Positions 21,074-57,609 of a DNA stretch of 64,000 nt are shown in pieces. The number at the start of each line of letters is the position of its first letter. The first letter of the stretch is position 1. Below the pieces are notes generated by a model. The model was not told the DNA's origin and made no database searches. It worked only from the letters and a program-made list of their open reading frames with translations. The translations under genes and the position numbers were made by a program. Source of the stretch: Candidatus Nitrotoga sp. HW29 (lineage in GTDB: Bacteria > Pseudomonadota > Gammaproteobacteria > Burkholderiales > Gallionellaceae); the NCBI RefSeq assembly GCF_924101635.2, contig NZ_CAKMAA020000055.1:1-64000 (forward strand), in the 5' to 3' direction.

Positions 21074-23902
21074 ATGGACAGTATTAAAATACGTGGCGCA
21101 CGCACGCACAACCTTAAAAACATTAGCCTCGATTTACCACGCAATCAACTTGTGGTCATCACCGGATTGTCAGGTTCCGGCAAGTCTTCCCTCGCTTTTG
21201 ACACTTTGTATGCCGAAGGACAACGACGCTATGTCGAATCGCTTTCCGCTTACGCGCGCCAGTTTTTGCAACTCATGGCAAAGCCGGATGTGGATTTGAT
21301 CGAGGGCTTGTCGCCTGCCATCGCCATTGAACAAAAAGCTACCTCGCATAACCCGCGTTCTACTGTCGGCACGGTGACAGAAATTCACGACTATCTTCGC
21401 CTGCTGTTTGCACGCGCAGGTGACCCCTATTGCCCTCAGCATGACCTAGTATTACAGGCCCAAAGCGTTGGGCAGATGGTAGACCATGTGCTGCAACTGC
21501 CACAAAACACACGCATTATGATTCTTTCTCCATTGATCATTGAACGCAAAGGTGAACAAGTCGATCTGTTTAATGAATTACGTGCACAAGGTTTTATGCG
21601 GCTACGCGTAAACGGCACCGTGCATGAGATAGATAAGCTGCCCACGCTGGCAAAGAACAAGAAGCACACGATTGAGATTGTGGTGGATCGGTTGAAAGCC
21701 AGTACAGATAACCAGCAGCGCCTGGCGGAATCATTCGAGACCGCATTGCGCCATGCCGAGGGGCGCGCCTTAGCAGTGGAAATGGACAGCGGTAAAGAAC
21801 ATATATTCTCCGCCAAATTTGCCTGCCCGATCTGCAATTATTCATTGCCAGAACTGGAGCCACGCTTATTTTCGTTTAACAATCCAATGGGGGCCTGCCC
21901 GAAATGCGATGGGTTGGGCAGCATCAGTTTCTTCGATCCAAAACGAATTGTCGCTTTCCCACAATTGTCTTTAAGTTCTGGGGCAATTAAAGGGTGGGAT
22001 CGACGCAACCAGTTCTATGACCAGATGCTAGATGGTTTAGCCAAGTATTACGATTTTGATCTGGAACGTCCGTTCGAAAGCCTGCCAGACAACATACAAC
22101 AAATTATTTTGTACGGCAGTGGCAAGGAAGAAATTCCATTCAGCTATCTCAACGAGCGCGGCAAACCCACGCTACGCGAGCATACATTCGAAGGCATCAT
22201 CAATAATCTGGAGCGGCGTTATAAGGAAACCACTTCACCTACCGTGCGCGAAGAACTGGCAAAACATCTCAACACCTGCATTTGCCCTGAATGCAAAGGA
22301 ACGCGCCTGCGCCTGGAAGCCCGTAATGTGCGTATCGCAGACCATGCCATATATGAGCTAAGCGCATTACCCTTAAAGCAAGCACTTACTTTCTTCCAAC
22401 AAGTGAAGCTACCAGGCCACAAGCAGGCCATCGCAGAAAGAATCGTACATGAAATTACCAGTCGCCTGACCTTTCTCAACAACGTCGGCTTGGAATATCT
22501 GTCCCTAGATCGTTCGGCAGAAACCTTGTCAGGTGGCGAATCCCAGCGCATCCGCTTAGCCTCGCAAATCGGCTCCGGCCTGACCGGTGTGATGTATGTA
22601 TTAGACGAACCCTCCATCGGCCTGCATCAGCGTGACAATGATCGTTTACTAGGCACACTGAAACGCCTGCGCGACATGGGCAACAGCGTAATCGTAGTAG
22701 AACATGACGCGGATGCAATCCAGGCTGCTGACTACGTAGTGGATATGGGTCCCGGAGCGGGCGAACATGGGGGCATGGTCGTCGCGCAAGGCACACCGCA
22801 AGAAGTGTGTGCTAACCAGCATTCGCTGACAGGTGATTATCTTTCTGGTCGGCACAACATCGAAGTACCCAAAAAATATCTCCCCCCCGATCTGGAACGC
22901 ATGCTACAAATTCAAGGCGCATGCGGCAACAATCTGAAACATGTCACGCTTAATTTACCTGTTGGTCTGCTGGTGTGTATCACCGGCGTATCCGGTTCCG
23001 GCAAGTCCACCCTCATCAACGACACGCTGTATCACGCCGTCGCACAACATCTGTATGGAAGCAACGCCGAACCCGCACCGTTTGTCAAAATCGACGGGCT
23101 GGAATTTTTCGACAAGGTCATTAACGTAGATCAATCGCCCATTGGACGCACCCCACGATCTAACCCTGCTACCTATACGGGTTTATTCACCCCCATCCGC
23201 GAGCTATTTGCCGGAGTGCCCCAATCGCGCGAGCGCGGCTATGGTCCCGGGCGATTCTCATTCAACGTAAAAGGCGGACGCTGTGAATCCTGCCAAGGCG
23301 ATGGTGTAATCAAAGTCGAAATGCATTTCCTGCCTGACCTCTATGTGCCATGCGACGTGTGTCATAGCATGCGCTATAACCGAGAAACGCTAGAAATCCA
23401 ATACAAAGGGCAAAACATCCACCAAATTTTGCAAATGACAGTGGAACATGCACATGAATTTTTCAAACCGATACCTATCATCGCACGTAAACTGCAAACT
23501 ATGCTTGACGTGGGGCTCGGCTACATCACATTAGGACAAAGTGCGACTACACTGTCTGGCGGCGAAGCACAACGCATCAAATTATCGCTGGAACTTTCTA
23601 AGCGTGACACTGGACGAACGCTATACATCTTAGATGAGCCTACAACCGGCCTACATTTTCATGATATCGCCCTGCTTCTAAAAGTTATTCAGAAACTACG
23701 TGACCAAGGAAACACTGTGGTAGTAATCGAACATAACCTTGACGTGATAAAGACCGCCGATTGGATTATAGACCTTGGACCGGAGGGCGGCGGCGGCGGG
23801 GGCAATATCATCGCACAAGGTGCACCAAATGACATTGCCGCTAATCCACAAAGTATTACTGGCGCTTACCTGAAACAGATGTTGAGCACAATCAAACAAT
23901 AA
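21074..23902 (+). CDS. uvrA: Excinuclease ABC subunit UvrA
   Basis: A 942-residue DNA damage-recognition ATPase of nucleotide excision repair, of usual length. It has two ABC modules: Walker [20 protein letters not shown] near residue 31 and [16 protein letters not shown] near 641; signatures [21 protein letters not shown] and [15 protein letters not shown]; and Walker [11 protein letters not shown] and [10 protein letters not shown]. Zinc-finger cysteines occur in [16 protein letters not shown] and [13 protein letters not shown]. The protein loads UvrB at lesions. No LexA box was identified upstream. Confidence 0.98.
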
Positions 23903-24250
23903 AGAATTAACTCTATTGATCACCCGCCCGACCAATCCCTTTAATTACAGCAAATTACAATTTATTTGCAGTATATTACATCTACAAAACTGCATGATTT
24001 CTAACCTAAAGAGACCCATTACCAAAGCGCATCTTTTTAAAGATAAAGACAACATAGCGCAACCAAATTTCAAACTCAAAAAGAGGAGAATGAGAAGCTA
24101 TTAAATTACAGTGTAAAAGTATCAATTTTTTTTGCAATACTTACCAATATTATGTTACCCTGACTTAGCTGTTAGAAATTTCTAAGAGCCCCCGCGGACG
24201 GTACGAGTGGGTTTATCTTTTTTATTTATTTACTTAGAGGAGTAATAATT
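23903..24250. other. Intergenic region with a 14-bp palindrome
   Basis: About 350 AT-rich bases before the secreted-protein gene, with no supported gene. A perfect palindrome ttagaaatttctaa lies at 24172-24185. A well-placed AGAGGAG box precedes the downstream ATG. No -35/-10 pair with good spacing was found. Confidence 0.5.
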
Positions 24251-25201
24251 ATGCGCAGAGTTAACTCACTGGCACTACTGCTTGCTATTAGTTCCCCGGC
24301 TGCCATGGCATATGACGGCCCACATGCTCAATACAATTTTCTTCCTCCGGTAGGCTCGTTTGCAGCAGATCCCCAAGCCGGCGATCTGCATCCTGGAGCC
24401 CAAGTCGGCATACCGGGCAACTATCCTCCCGGCGGCGGTGAAGTTGCCCCTAAATACCAATATGAAACCCAAGGTCAATATAACATTGGGAAACATCATT
24501 TAGAGCAATGGCAAAAAGAAGAAGGCGGTGCCGGTCAAGCCAGTTATCATGGAAAACAACCCACCAAATTTACTCCAGACTTTAAAACCGCTGTTCCATA
24601 TGTAGACGGCAAACCTCTTTACGATACAGATTTTAATGAGTCTTGGGCGGGAGACAGGGCGAACGGTACTGGGGGCTGTATAGCTAGTGGAGCACCGTAT
24701 TGCGTAGCTCCAGTAGAAACAGGTCTTGGTTATCATCCGGCAGAAACCGATCCGAGCAAAACCTACACTAAAATTCACGGCGTTAACGATGGCACCCCAA
24801 GGGGCACAGGTACAACTGTAACCATGAATGCAGTCGTAGAAAACACTGATACTAAAGCAGGTACAAAACCGGCAAAGATCAGACTTCAATATGCAATTAC
24901 ACCTGGCGGAAACTTTGTAGATACTACTCGTCAACCTCAAAATGCCGGTTATACGAAATTGGCTCCTGAAGGTACATACCGTTATCAATCGCCAACCATT
25001 ATATACAATGATGAGCATGGTCATCTGTTTATAGATGGCAAGCATTTTTCTGGGATACATCTATTAAATGGTAGCTATGGCTACACAGTTGGTCTAGATC
25101 TGCTCGGACCAGGAAAACATGACATCTGTATCAAGATAGTAGATGAATTCCATGAAGTGGTTGATATGGGAACGCAAGCTTGTGTTGCAGTTACAGTTTA
25201 A
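24251..25201 (+). CDS. Secreted protein of unknown family
   Basis: A 316-residue protein I do not recognise. Residues 1-20 form a signal peptide (basic start, LALLLAISSPA, cleavage probably after AMA). The mature N-terminal 60 residues are rich in Gly, Pro and Tyr (PPVGSFAADPQAGDLHPGAQ, YPPGGGEVAPKYQYETQGQY). A middle region has a close Cys pair (GGCIASGAPYCVAP). The C-terminal third looks like beta strands (IRLQYAITPGG, SPTIIYNDEHGHLFIDGK, YGYTVGLDLLGPGKHDICIKIVDEF) with two more Cys, perhaps an immunoglobulin-like sandwich; this is inference. It has a strong ribosome binding site, stands alone and is flanked by hairpins. Periplasmic or extracellular, function unknown. Confidence 0.8.
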   Translation: MRRVNSLALLLAISSPAAMAYDGPHAQYNFLPPVGSFAADPQAGDLHPGAQVGIPGNYPPGGGEVAPKYQYETQGQYNIGKHHLEQWQKEEGGAGQASYHGKQPTKFTPDFKTAVPYVDGKPLYDTDFNESWAGDRANGTGGCIASGAPYCVAPVETGLGYHPAETDPSKTYTKIHGVNDGTPRGTGTTVTMNAVVENTDTKAGTKPAKIRLQYAITPGGNFVDTTRQPQNAGYTKLAPEGTYRYQSPTIIYNDEHGHLFIDGKHFSGIHLLNGSYGYTVGLDLLGPGKHDICIKIVDEFHEVVDMGTQACVAVTV

Positions 25202-25262
25202 AGTGAATTTATTGTATTTGTAAAATACTTGAACTATGCCGTCCGTATAGTGTATGTATTTT

Positions 25263-25310
25263 GTGTAAACCTTGGATACCGTTACTTAACGACGGTATCC
25301 GCGTTTATAC
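25263..25310. terminator. Imperfect palindrome after the secreted-protein gene
   Basis: A perfect nine-base inner stem (ggataccgt/acggtatcc, nine-base loop) is extended outwards by gtgtaaac/gtttatac with one mismatch. It lies about 60 bases after the stop codon; no long T-run follows. Confidence 0.5.
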
Positions 25311-25358
25311 AAAAATTCTAGCTTAGATTGATTACGAAACAGATTTTTATCAAAAAAC

Positions 25359-25412
25359 AACTTGAACCAATAAAAAAGTCAGCTTAAGCTGGCTTTTTTA
25401 TTGGTTCAAGTT
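25359..25412. terminator. 54-bp near-perfect palindrome, likely bidirectional terminator
   Basis: Two 27-base arms differ at one position and meet at TTAA. The stem contains gtcagc with a T-run on the distal side in both orientations. It separates the secreted-protein gene from the IS30 remnant and the ribosomal cluster. Confidence 0.7.
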
Positions 25413-25424
25413 CGAAGTGAAACA

Positions 25425-25915
25425 ACAGCTGGTGGTAACTAATTCGTTCTATCACTCGCTGCACTTACTCCCCGATAACGCCAGCCAACTCTATGCCTTT
25501 AGAGAAGTACTATCCCTTAACTATCTCGTTCAGACTTCGCTCCCAGAAACGGTAGGGATACGCAAAATAGATCGCAGTCTGCAGTTTTGCTGCGATACGC
25601 TCATGTCTCGCAAACTCTTTACCGTTATCGAATGGTATGATATTTATTCTTGATAGGGACTTGATAAACTGGTTGTCACAATCACTACACCCTCGGTATA
25701 TTTGTAGCCTATAATGTGCCCCGCCGACACGTAGCACGATTCTCTTTCAGCCAATCTAACTCGCTCACCTTCGTGATTCTGCCAATATGCGCAGATATAC
25801 TGATAGGTGGCCTCATGCTGATCTTCAGTTCGCCTTCCGGCTCAAGCCGATTGGCAACTTGCGCTGGGCCAAGGTCTACTAAACTCCCGTGGAATCGTCG
25901 ACTTGTCCGCGCCTA
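25425..25915 (-). pseudogene. IS30-family transposase remnant
   Basis: Minus-strand fragments in shifting frames match IS30-type transposases: VANRLEPEGELKI followed, after a one-base shift, by HEATYQYICAYW; further on PFDNGKEFARHERIAAKL and IYFAYPYRFWERSLNEIVKG with the catalytic Asp and Glu motifs; then, after in-frame stops, YFSKGIELAGV and VQRVIER. There are at least two frameshifts and two stop codons. No terminal inverted repeats were found. It is an old decayed copy at the end of the ribosomal cluster. Confidence 0.8.
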
Positions 25916-25929
25916 TTGAATTCACCAAT

Positions 25930-25954
25930 AAAAAAAGCCGGACAAGTCCGGCTT
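25930..25954 (-). terminator. Intrinsic terminator of the alpha operon
   Basis: On the minus strand, aagccgga pairs perfectly with tccggctt across a four-base loop and is followed by a run of T. It lies just after rplQ and ends the whole ribosomal cluster. Confidence 0.92.
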
Positions 25955-25975
25955 ATACATCTTTATTTATTGATA

Positions 25976-26368
25976 TTATTTTGTTTCAGTCTCAACCGAT
26001 TCATTTACTAATGGCCGATCCAATAGCTCTACCAAAGCCATTGGCGCATTGTCTCCTTTACGAAAACCAAATTTCAAGATACGTGAATAGCCTCCATTTC
26101 TGGTTGCATAACGTGGGCCAAGCTCATCGAATAACTTAATAACCATTTCACGATCACGTAACCGTGCAAATGCCAAACGACGGTTAGCCAAACTAGGATT
26201 TTTACCCAAAGTTAAAATCGGCTCAGCTACACGACGTAGTTCCTTGGCCTTAGGTAGTGTAGTTTTTATAACTTCATAGCGCAATAAAGAAGCTATCATA
26301 TTACGCAACATTGCCAATCGGTGACTACTGGTACGATTAAGCTTTCTTAGTCCTAAACGGTGACGCAT
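25976..26368 (-). CDS. rplQ: 50S ribosomal protein L17
   Basis: A 130-residue L17 of the large subunit, located near the peptide exit tunnel. The start [20 protein letters not shown] is characteristic, followed by [25 protein letters not shown]. The acidic tail after LDRPLV is typical for betaproteobacteria. It is the last gene of the cluster, 12 bases after rpoA. Confidence 0.97.
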
Positions 26369-39914: not shown

Positions 39915-41105
39915 TTACTCGATCACCTTGGCCACCACACCGGCACCGACGGTGCGACCGCCTTCACGTATCGCAAAACGCAGACCCTCTTCCATCGCGA
40001 TCGGGGCTATCAAGCTCACCGTCACCGACACATTGTCTCCCGGCATCACCATTTCAGTGCCAGCCGGCAGTTCAACTGCGCCCGTCACATCGGTAGTTCT
40101 AAAATAGAATTGCGGACGATAACCCTGGAAAAACGGGGTGTGACGACCCCCCTCATCTTTACTAAGAACGTAAATTTCAGCCGTAAACTTGGTATGCGGG
40201 GTGATAGAACCCGGTTTAGCCAGAACTTGGCCACGCTCAACTTCTTCACGTTTGGTGCCACGCAACAGGATTCCAACGTTATCACCAGCCTGACCTTGAT
40301 CAAGTAGCTTACGGAACATTTCCACGCCGGTGCAGATGGTTTTAATTGTGGGCTTGAGGCCGACAATTTCAATTTCCTCGCCTACCTTGATGACACCACG
40401 TTCCACCCGGCCCGTTACCACAGTACCGCGACCAGAAATGGAGAAAACATCTTCAACGGGCATCAGGAAGGTGCCGTCCATGACGCGCATAGGTTGCGGT
40501 ATATAGGCATCCAGTGCTTCGGCCAGACGATAAATGGAAGGCTCGCCAATTTCGGACTGATCACCTTGCAAAGCCTTAAGTGCACTCCCAACAATGATCG
40601 GCGTATCGTCACCTGGAAAGTCGTATTTGGTAAGAAGTTCGCGCACTTCCATTTCAACCAACTCAAGCAGCTCAGGGTCATCCACCATGTCAGCCTTATT
40701 CATGTAGACGATGATGTAGGGCACACCCACTTGACGCGCCAACAGGATATGCTCCCGCGTTTGCGGCATAGGACCATCGGCGGCAGATACTACCAAGATA
40801 GCGCCATCCATCTGTGCAGCACCCGTAATCATGTTTTTAATGTAATCCGCATGACCCGGGCAGTCTACGTGGGCGTAATGCCGACCAGACGTCTCATACT
40901 CTACGTGAGCGGTGTTTATGGTAATGCCGCGCGCCTTCTCTTCCGGCGCCGCGTCAATCTGGTCATAGGCTTTAGCCTCACCGCCAAATTTCTTGGACAG
41001 CACTGTCGTAATCGCCGCAGTCAGGGTGGTCTTGCCATGATCAACGTGACCAATCGTGCCTACATTGATGTGCGGCTTGCTACGCTCAAATTTACTCTTT
41101 GCCAT
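39915..41105 (-). CDS. tuf: Elongation factor Tu (copy 1, in the str operon)
   Basis: A 396-residue GTPase that delivers aminoacyl-tRNA to the ribosome. G motifs are [14 protein letters not shown] (19-32), [12 protein letters not shown] and NKADMVDD, and domains 2 and 3 follow with [13 protein letters not shown] and [13 protein letters not shown]. The protein is identical to the second copy at 56419-57609; this copy ends in TAA, the other in TAG. It follows fusA, as in classic str operons. Confidence 0.98.
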
Positions 41106-56418: not shown

Positions 56419-57609
56419 CTACTCGATCACCTTGGCCACCACACCGGCACCGACGGTGCGACCGCCTTCACGTATCGCAAAACGCAGACCCTCTTCCATC
56501 GCGATCGGGGCTATCAAGCTCACCGTCACCGACACATTGTCTCCCGGCATCACCATTTCAGTGCCAGCCGGCAGTTCAACTGCGCCCGTCACATCGGTAG
56601 TTCTAAAATAGAATTGCGGACGATAACCCTGGAAAAACGGGGTGTGACGACCCCCCTCATCTTTACTAAGAACGTAAATTTCAGCCGTAAACTTGGTATG
56701 CGGGGTGATAGAACCCGGTTTAGCCAGAACTTGGCCACGCTCAACTTCTTCACGTTTGGTGCCACGCAACAGGATTCCAACGTTATCACCAGCCTGACCT
56801 TGATCAAGTAGCTTACGGAACATTTCCACGCCGGTGCAGATGGTTTTAATTGTGGGCTTGAGGCCGACAATTTCAATTTCCTCGCCTACCTTGATGACAC
56901 CACGTTCCACCCGGCCCGTTACCACAGTACCGCGACCAGAAATGGAGAAAACATCTTCAACGGGCATCAGGAAGGTGCCGTCCATGACGCGCATAGGTTG
57001 CGGTATATAGGCATCCAGTGCTTCGGCCAGACGATAAATGGAAGGCTCGCCAATTTCGGACTGATCACCTTGCAAAGCCTTAAGTGCACTCCCAACAATG
57101 ATCGGCGTATCGTCACCTGGAAAGTCGTATTTGGTAAGAAGTTCGCGCACTTCCATTTCAACCAACTCAAGCAGCTCAGGGTCATCCACCATGTCAGCCT
57201 TATTCATGTAGACGATGATGTAGGGCACACCCACTTGACGCGCCAACAGGATATGCTCCCGCGTTTGCGGCATAGGACCATCGGCGGCAGATACTACCAA
57301 GATAGCGCCATCCATCTGTGCAGCACCCGTAATCATGTTTTTAATGTAATCCGCATGACCCGGGCAGTCTACGTGGGCGTAATGCCGACCAGACGTCTCA
57401 TACTCTACGTGAGCGGTGTTTATGGTAATGCCGCGCGCCTTCTCTTCCGGCGCCGCGTCAATCTGGTCATAGGCTTTAGCCTCACCGCCAAATTTCTTGG
57501 ACAGCACTGTCGTAATCGCCGCAGTCAGGGTGGTCTTGCCATGATCAACGTGACCAATCGTGCCTACATTGATGTGCGGCTTGCTACGCTCAAATTTACT
57601 CTTTGCCAT
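56419..57609 (-). CDS. tuf: Elongation factor Tu (copy 2, tRNA-tuf operon)
   Basis: A 396-residue EF-Tu with a protein sequence identical to copy 1. The nucleotide match runs from just inside the stop codon to five bases before the ATG. It sits downstream of the Tyr, Gly and Thr tRNA genes and before tRNA-Trp and secE, as in other proteobacterial tufB units, so EF-Tu and its tRNA ligands are made together. Confidence 0.98.

Follow-up and report, generated by a model that had tools for sequence, protein, structure and literature searches.

The P0001 gene and its surroundings

The window, a 64,000-nucleotide stretch of DNA from Candidatus Nitrotoga sp. HW29 and the whole of the sequence analysed here, holds the gene P0001 in its uvrA-rplQ interval. 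Contig titles and passages of PMC10734462 place the host among the nitrite oxidisers of the Gallionellaceae, in agreement with the iron- or nitrogen-oxidising betaproteobacterium suspected in the initial annotation. As had been noted, palindromes frame the gene, at 24168-24189 upstream and at 25359-25412 (27-nt arms) downstream. The following features were assigned:

24126..24162, + strand: promoter-like block (T-run, TTGCAAT, TATTAT at 24148-24153), assigned by conservation; putative promoter
24163..24250, + strand: 5' leader with predicted hairpins at 24168-24189 and 24191-24211 and Shine-Dalgarno sequence at 24236-24242; putative transcription start
24251..25201, + strand: P0001, 316 aa, ATG start, putative signal peptide
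24251..24310, + strand: putative signal peptide, residues 1-20 (preceding 24311), read by eye; aligns with that of the short proteins
24311..24805, + strand: Gly/Pro/Tyr-rich region, residues 21-185, with Cys 143 and 151; genus-restricted
24806..25198, + strand: DUF4399-like Ig-type domain, residues 186-316, with His 256/258/290/301 and Cys 293/311
24908..25006, + strand: insert of ~30 residues (about 220-252), absent from the short relatives, from the alignment and dN/dS
25359..25412, no strand: hairpin with 27-nt arms, bidirectional-terminator-like by inspection
25513..25746, - strand: IS30-family transposase fragment (NF033563, E 2.7e-12, 47 bits, below the cut-off of 80)

Much of the earlier reading of the open reading frame was borne out. 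By eye, the putative signal peptide ends in A-M-A at residues 18-20, and from its sequence P0001 is very likely to be exported, probably by the Sec route. The ribosome binding site, AGAGGAG, lies 8 nt upstream of the ATG, and the cysteines are placed as described, with one pair at 143/151 and two C-terminal residues at 293/311. The low complexity ascribed to the mature N-terminus holds for the composition of residues 21-185 (Gly 15.8%, Pro 10.9%, Tyr 7.3%), but this region is constrained, with a mean column identity of 88% across 14 sequences.

Whole P0001 gave no match in Pfam or NCBIfam at E ≤ 1. When the orthologues were compared with Pfam none reached threshold, Big_15 being the only family seen at E ≤ 1 (2 of 14, best 0.023). 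For residues 21-185, the PDB yielded nothing with either the N-region profile or the whole protein, and plasmids searched with whole P0001 yielded nothing either; the 18 pattern matches of the N-region in viral contigs included no relative, and among 350 genomes of the class the N-region profile matched its own genome alone. Weak phmmer matches of P0001 to designed proteins and cyanovirin (6 sequences, E 0.13-2) were judged to be chance, as were weak matches of the short-protein profile (5 sequences, E 0.24-0.83). Within these searches, the claim that the protein belongs to no recognised family stands for residues 21-185, but is unsupported for residues ~186-316, which by profile comparison match short secreted proteins related to DUF4399. 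P0001 goes unmentioned in the passages of the published papers that were covered.

The full-length model of P0001 (16 sequences) was poor, with a mean pLDDT of 38.5 and values of 21-28 in most N-region blocks, and therefore shows neither disorder nor a fold for the N-region. Its C-terminal part is predicted to be all-beta with a strand order that agrees with that of a short protein; the beta-rich C-terminal third of the initial annotation is thus retained as a prediction, albeit from a poor model.

Relatives of the C-terminal domain

Profile-profile comparison, which had been suggested as a check, split the protein in two. With hhalign, residues 184-316 of P0001 matched a set of 49 short secreted proteins at 99.1% (E 8.5e-19) and these proteins matched DUF4399 at 98.3% (E 1.6e-14); the C-terminal part compared directly with DUF4399 gave 68% (E 4.8e-5), and residues 21-185 gave less than 1% against either. 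The 49 are the distinct sequences of at most 260 aa, among the loci fetched, that the A2 profile matched at E ≤ 1e-20; hmmsearch with this profile found the 14 P0001 orthologues at E 7e-16 to 9e-12. In a MAFFT alignment the signal peptides of the short proteins and of P0001 align, as does the mature domain with the P0001 C-terminus, the insert excepted. By profile comparison, a short secreted domain related to DUF4399 thus appears in divergent form as the C-terminal third of P0001.

The short proteins are found in the Gallionellaceae and in a minority of other members of the class. They share with P0001 the domain, its histidines and Cys pair, a similar signal peptide and, in some genomes, the uvrA-rplQ interval; unlike P0001, they are only ~113 aa long, lack the N-region and insert, and are usually paired with a membrane-protein gene. 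The histidine pattern combines an H-x-H located on one strand with a later H and with a G-K-H that is nearly invariant. H58 and H60 are present in 49/49 short proteins, H99 in 48/49 (one gap) and H88 in 44/49, and H256, H258, H301, C293 and C311 are invariant in the 14 P0001 orthologues, with H290 nearly so. We consider it possible, at somewhat less than even odds, that H256, H258 and H301 bind a metal ion; H290 may lie at the opposite end of the sheet, as judged by predicted strand order. Among the short proteins both cysteines are present in 42/49 and both absent in 6/49 (one row is truncated), and since they occur as a pair, a 293-311 disulfide in P0001 is likely.

The DUF4399 (PF14347) proteins are likewise exported Ig-like domains, in which H-x-H, G-x-H and a later H succeed one another as in P0001. 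P0001 differs from them in lacking the 'HFGxGQTE' loop of most DUF4399 rows, in adding the Cys pair, the insert and a 165-residue N-terminal region, and in missing the Pfam model, which 0/14 orthologues match at E ≤ 1, short of the gathering cut-off. Near-100% histidine conservation in our 22 DUF4399 rows is biased, because these rows were picked with a histidine-demanding motif that dropped 2 of 24 loci. Counted without this bias, PF14347 hits occur in 20 of 94 genomes, including the window's own genome at another locus (L155, G000:C17:67139-67411), where a separate DUF4399 protein scores above the Pfam cut-off.

Compared with Pfam, 22 short proteins matched DUF4399 weakly in 8 cases (best E 0.0045) and DUF6130 weakly in 8 (best 0.0013). 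Their commonest Pfam neighbour was thus not DUF4399 but Big_7 (PF17957), matched by 19/22 at E ≤ 1 (best E 2.7e-6), and single short proteins weakly matched several Ig-type models. Big_7 is a generic bacterial Ig fold family without a function, whose general fold class is shared, but P0001 itself does not match it at E ≤ 1. DUF6130 was found in 0/94 genomes and 0/14 controls.

A model of a short member built from five sequences reached a mean pLDDT of 82.6, with eight predicted strands. It superimposed on the FN3-like 3pe9_B (VIA-align: Z 11.7, rmsd 2.2, 83 aligned), and Foldseek likewise returned Ig/FN3-like modules (E 7.3e-5, TM 0.61/0.75). The best fold matches of this predicted structure were FN3-like and other Ig-type modules, many of them from carbohydrate-active proteins; the fold is common and indicates no function. 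Such matches, together with the Gly/Pro/Tyr composition of residues 21-185, would suit a surface or extracellular-matrix protein, as first suggested, with a flexible or adhesive N-terminal stretch and an Ig-like domain serving as a structural module only. We regard this as rather unlikely: the short proteins and P0001 alike keep the histidines and the Cys pair, for which a purely structural module would have no use, and the N-region shows constraint (dN/dS 0.10-0.27 in five of seven comparisons, the other two being saturated and giving no value). As between periplasm and surface, nothing that we found favours a surface or matrix location.

We are highly confident of the anatomy and family relationship set out above. 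In P0001 the domain type is known, though uncharacterised; the architecture built on it is new.

Distribution, selection and origin

Full-length P0001 without internal stops is present in 14 of the 19 genomes of the genus, its own genome counted, and the remaining 13 orthologues are 75-95% identical to the window's protein. The A1 profile matched 52 of 158 family genomes, the match being full-length in the 14 only; its other matches cover only about residues 246-316. Partial matches to P0001 in the genome search led to the short secreted proteins. No full-length copy was found outside the genus among the 158 family genomes, and the confinement of homologues raised in the initial annotation is thus real at full length. 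A separate scan of named contigs gave ten loci with P0001, seven of them labelled Candidatus Nitrotoga and one each Nitrosomonadales, Gallionellales and Betaproteobacteria.

P0001 is under purifying selection. In comparisons of the window gene with seven orthologues, dN/dS was 0.08-0.24 for the whole gene (two of the seven near dS saturation), 0.05-0.17 for residues 186-316 and below 0.06 in all seven for the insert. Codon adaptation is ordinary (rank 46 among 61 ORFs), and high expression is unsupported by codon use. P0001 is, in sum, a real protein, under selection and specific to the genus, whose C-terminal domain can be recognised and whose N-region is an orphan.

Across the 13 orthologues, the 84-nt leader (24167-24250) is from 77/87 (G002) to 83/84 (G006 and G008) identical to that of the window, while 4-fold sites are only 45-84% identical in the seven orthologues compared; in G005 the figures are 80/84 for the leader against 60/133 (45%) for the 4-fold sites. 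Because the leader is nearly invariant while synonymous sites have diverged, something in it is under selection, be it as RNA, as DNA or for translation. Of the 158 family genomes, 13 contain a 24-nt leader core (≤3 mismatches), each in a single copy 5' of P0001; G002, with the fourteenth orthologue, has an altered form. There was no convincing copy upstream of short genes (8 stretches compared, best E 0.10). The leader had no Rfam match at E ≤ 1; the 14 sub-threshold matches from a scan of 23850-26000 all fall 3' of P0001. We do not call it a structured RNA because neither energy nor covariation exceeds chance: it folds no better than shuffles (z -0.13, -1.06) and no pair has changed on both sides. 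A coding leader was rejected, its indels not being multiples of three. GGA in a hairpin loop combined with a Shine-Dalgarno sequence is a motif that suits a CsrA-type regulator; here GGA is present in the loop of the second predicted leader hairpin and in the Shine-Dalgarno sequence, and a CsrA-type protein would suit as candidate regulator of P0001.

Further upstream, 24124-24162 is identical at 31-39 of 39 positions between the window and each of the 13 orthologues; a consensus scan found no + strand promoter site in 24126-24162. The hairpin at 25359-25412 recurs after P0001 in eight of the 12 stretches from relatives that were compared, and is absent from the output of the terminator scan.

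The locus was surveyed by tblastn of window genes on fetched stretches. The order uvrA-short-rplQ was found in G012 and G019, and uvrA-short in G035, where the remaining contig carries no rplQ; uvrA-P0001-short-rplQ was found in G006, G008, G018, G014, G002 and G005. In these six relatives, all members of the crown clade of the rpoA tree given below, the short gene and then its membrane gene stand between P0001 and rplQ, so the single-gene unit described at first holds for the window but not for them. The window has the IS30 fragment in the P0001-rplQ interval where relatives hold this gene pair, and neither the short nor the membrane gene was found in its genome, nor in G003, G007, G009 and G017. 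Other short genes of the family sit elsewhere (e.g. L037, L038, L061), the uvrA-rplQ place being common to some relatives only. G004 and G016 lack P0001 and have a tandem pair of short genes near rplQ (L040:5042-6379 and L045:1091-2558), the first of which is accompanied by what is left, 45 aa, of the membrane gene.

It might be argued that P0001 is a lineage-specific gene without a present role, decaying or neutral, as it is confined to one genus and is missing from G001. This is very improbable in view of the dN/dS of 0.08-0.24, the absence of stops in 14/14 copies, the nearly invariant leader and the retention of P0001 where the short/membrane pair is missing.

An rpoA tree gave a crown clade of 15 genomes (support 94/95), with P0001 in 14 of these 15 and in none of the four genomes outside it (G004, G011, G012 and G016), among which forks are weak; the outgroup branch is long. 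For the exception, G001, which is 99% complete and lies inside the crown, loss and an assembly gap are indistinguishable. The state of having P0001 without the short/membrane pair requires at least three changes on this tree. In a domain tree, based on few columns, the P0001 sequences group together (100/100) at the end of a long stem (1.45 changes per site) and do not nest among Nitrotoga short proteins. We think it probable that P0001 began as a tandem duplicate of the short gene, within the uvrA-rplQ interval; this proposal is made because of the locus and the architecture, and not from the domain tree.

A proposed function for P0001

Of the 49 short genes, 48 have enough DNA around them to judge; 39 of these have the membrane-protein gene directly 3', the G004 and G016 remnants included, with an offset of ≤10 nt in 38, and the other nine lack it there. 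The membrane-protein gene does not directly follow P0001: the window's genome has none, and in relatives it adjoins the short gene. Its product (e.g. L056:1682-2095), which occurs in the Gallionellaceae as well as in further members of the class, is ~138 aa long with four helices by eye and 19 invariant positions among 31 sequences (alignment A5), including an invariant H-N-x-G segment. It had no match in the PDB, and in Pfam weak scattered hits only, with no convincing family. A DUF4399-like domain tied to a recurrent secreted-protein/membrane-protein gene pair offers a handle on the function of the domain.

The general plan of CopC/CopD is a small periplasmic beta-sandwich with a membrane protein, and the locus might encode a metal uptake system of this kind, the short protein being the binder, the membrane protein the importer and P0001 a second binder. 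The tight gene pairing would fit, and hhalign sets the H-N-x-G segment against the first CopD helix (P 0.0036). The hhalign probability was only 9%, although this test is insensitive, because two groups of PF05425 hits gave 1.3% against each other. CopD is absent among the 25 of 26 Pfam families listed for the 31 membrane proteins, and CopC, judged from Pfam matches alone, from the 16 families matched by 22 short proteins; moreover, five genomes retain P0001 without the membrane gene. Apart from this faint CopD resemblance the likeness is one of general plan, and we find such an uptake system improbable.

P0001 as a whole is in our view best explained, with a probability of roughly 0.45, as a two-part exported, metal-binding protein of the periplasm or outer surface. 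The function we infer for it, weakly, is as follows. At the base of crown Nitrotoga, the short gene would have been copied in tandem at uvrA-rplQ, and the copy would have acquired the N-terminal region, the insert and its own leader. P0001 would then have outlived the parent short/membrane pair in several species, that of the window included. Once exported, the protein would most likely act either periplasmically or on the outer surface, its histidines holding a metal ion, for which copper is the favoured guess, while the disulfide would stiffen the C-terminal domain and the N-terminal region might, as a guess, bind a partner or surface.

Passages of PMC6050957 describe Nitrotoga as oxidising nitrite with its own type of enzyme, and according to those of PMC10734462 the genus appears to have evolved from iron oxidisers, while nxrAB, within the family, is confined to Ca. 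Nitrotoga, 85% of whose genomes carry it. Our search for NXR with TIGR03479 found 0/19 genomes reaching the cut-off; NXR-like frames were seen in 12/19, of which 11 have P0001 (G001 does not), and among the seven genomes without such frames P0001 is present in G002, G014 and G018 and absent from G004, G011, G012 and G016. Shared ancestry alone could explain this co-occurrence. That P0001 binds copper and serves the supply of the nitrite-oxidising respiratory chain is an improbable extension of the main reading, and still less probable is the full combination, in which P0001 would assist nitrite oxidation as a metal-binding periplasmic accessory that originated a single time at the Nitrotoga base, and its 84-nt leader would be a new cis-acting RNA controlling it. 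P0001 appears at about the point of the apparent shift of Nitrotoga from iron oxidisers. With P0001 in 14 of 15 clade genomes and selection on both protein and leader, the proposal is easy to test.

Elsewhere in the window, two 396-aa ORFs (39915-41105 and 56419-57609), identical over the first 60 residues shown, are presumably EF-Tu, i.e. a duplicated tuf gene.
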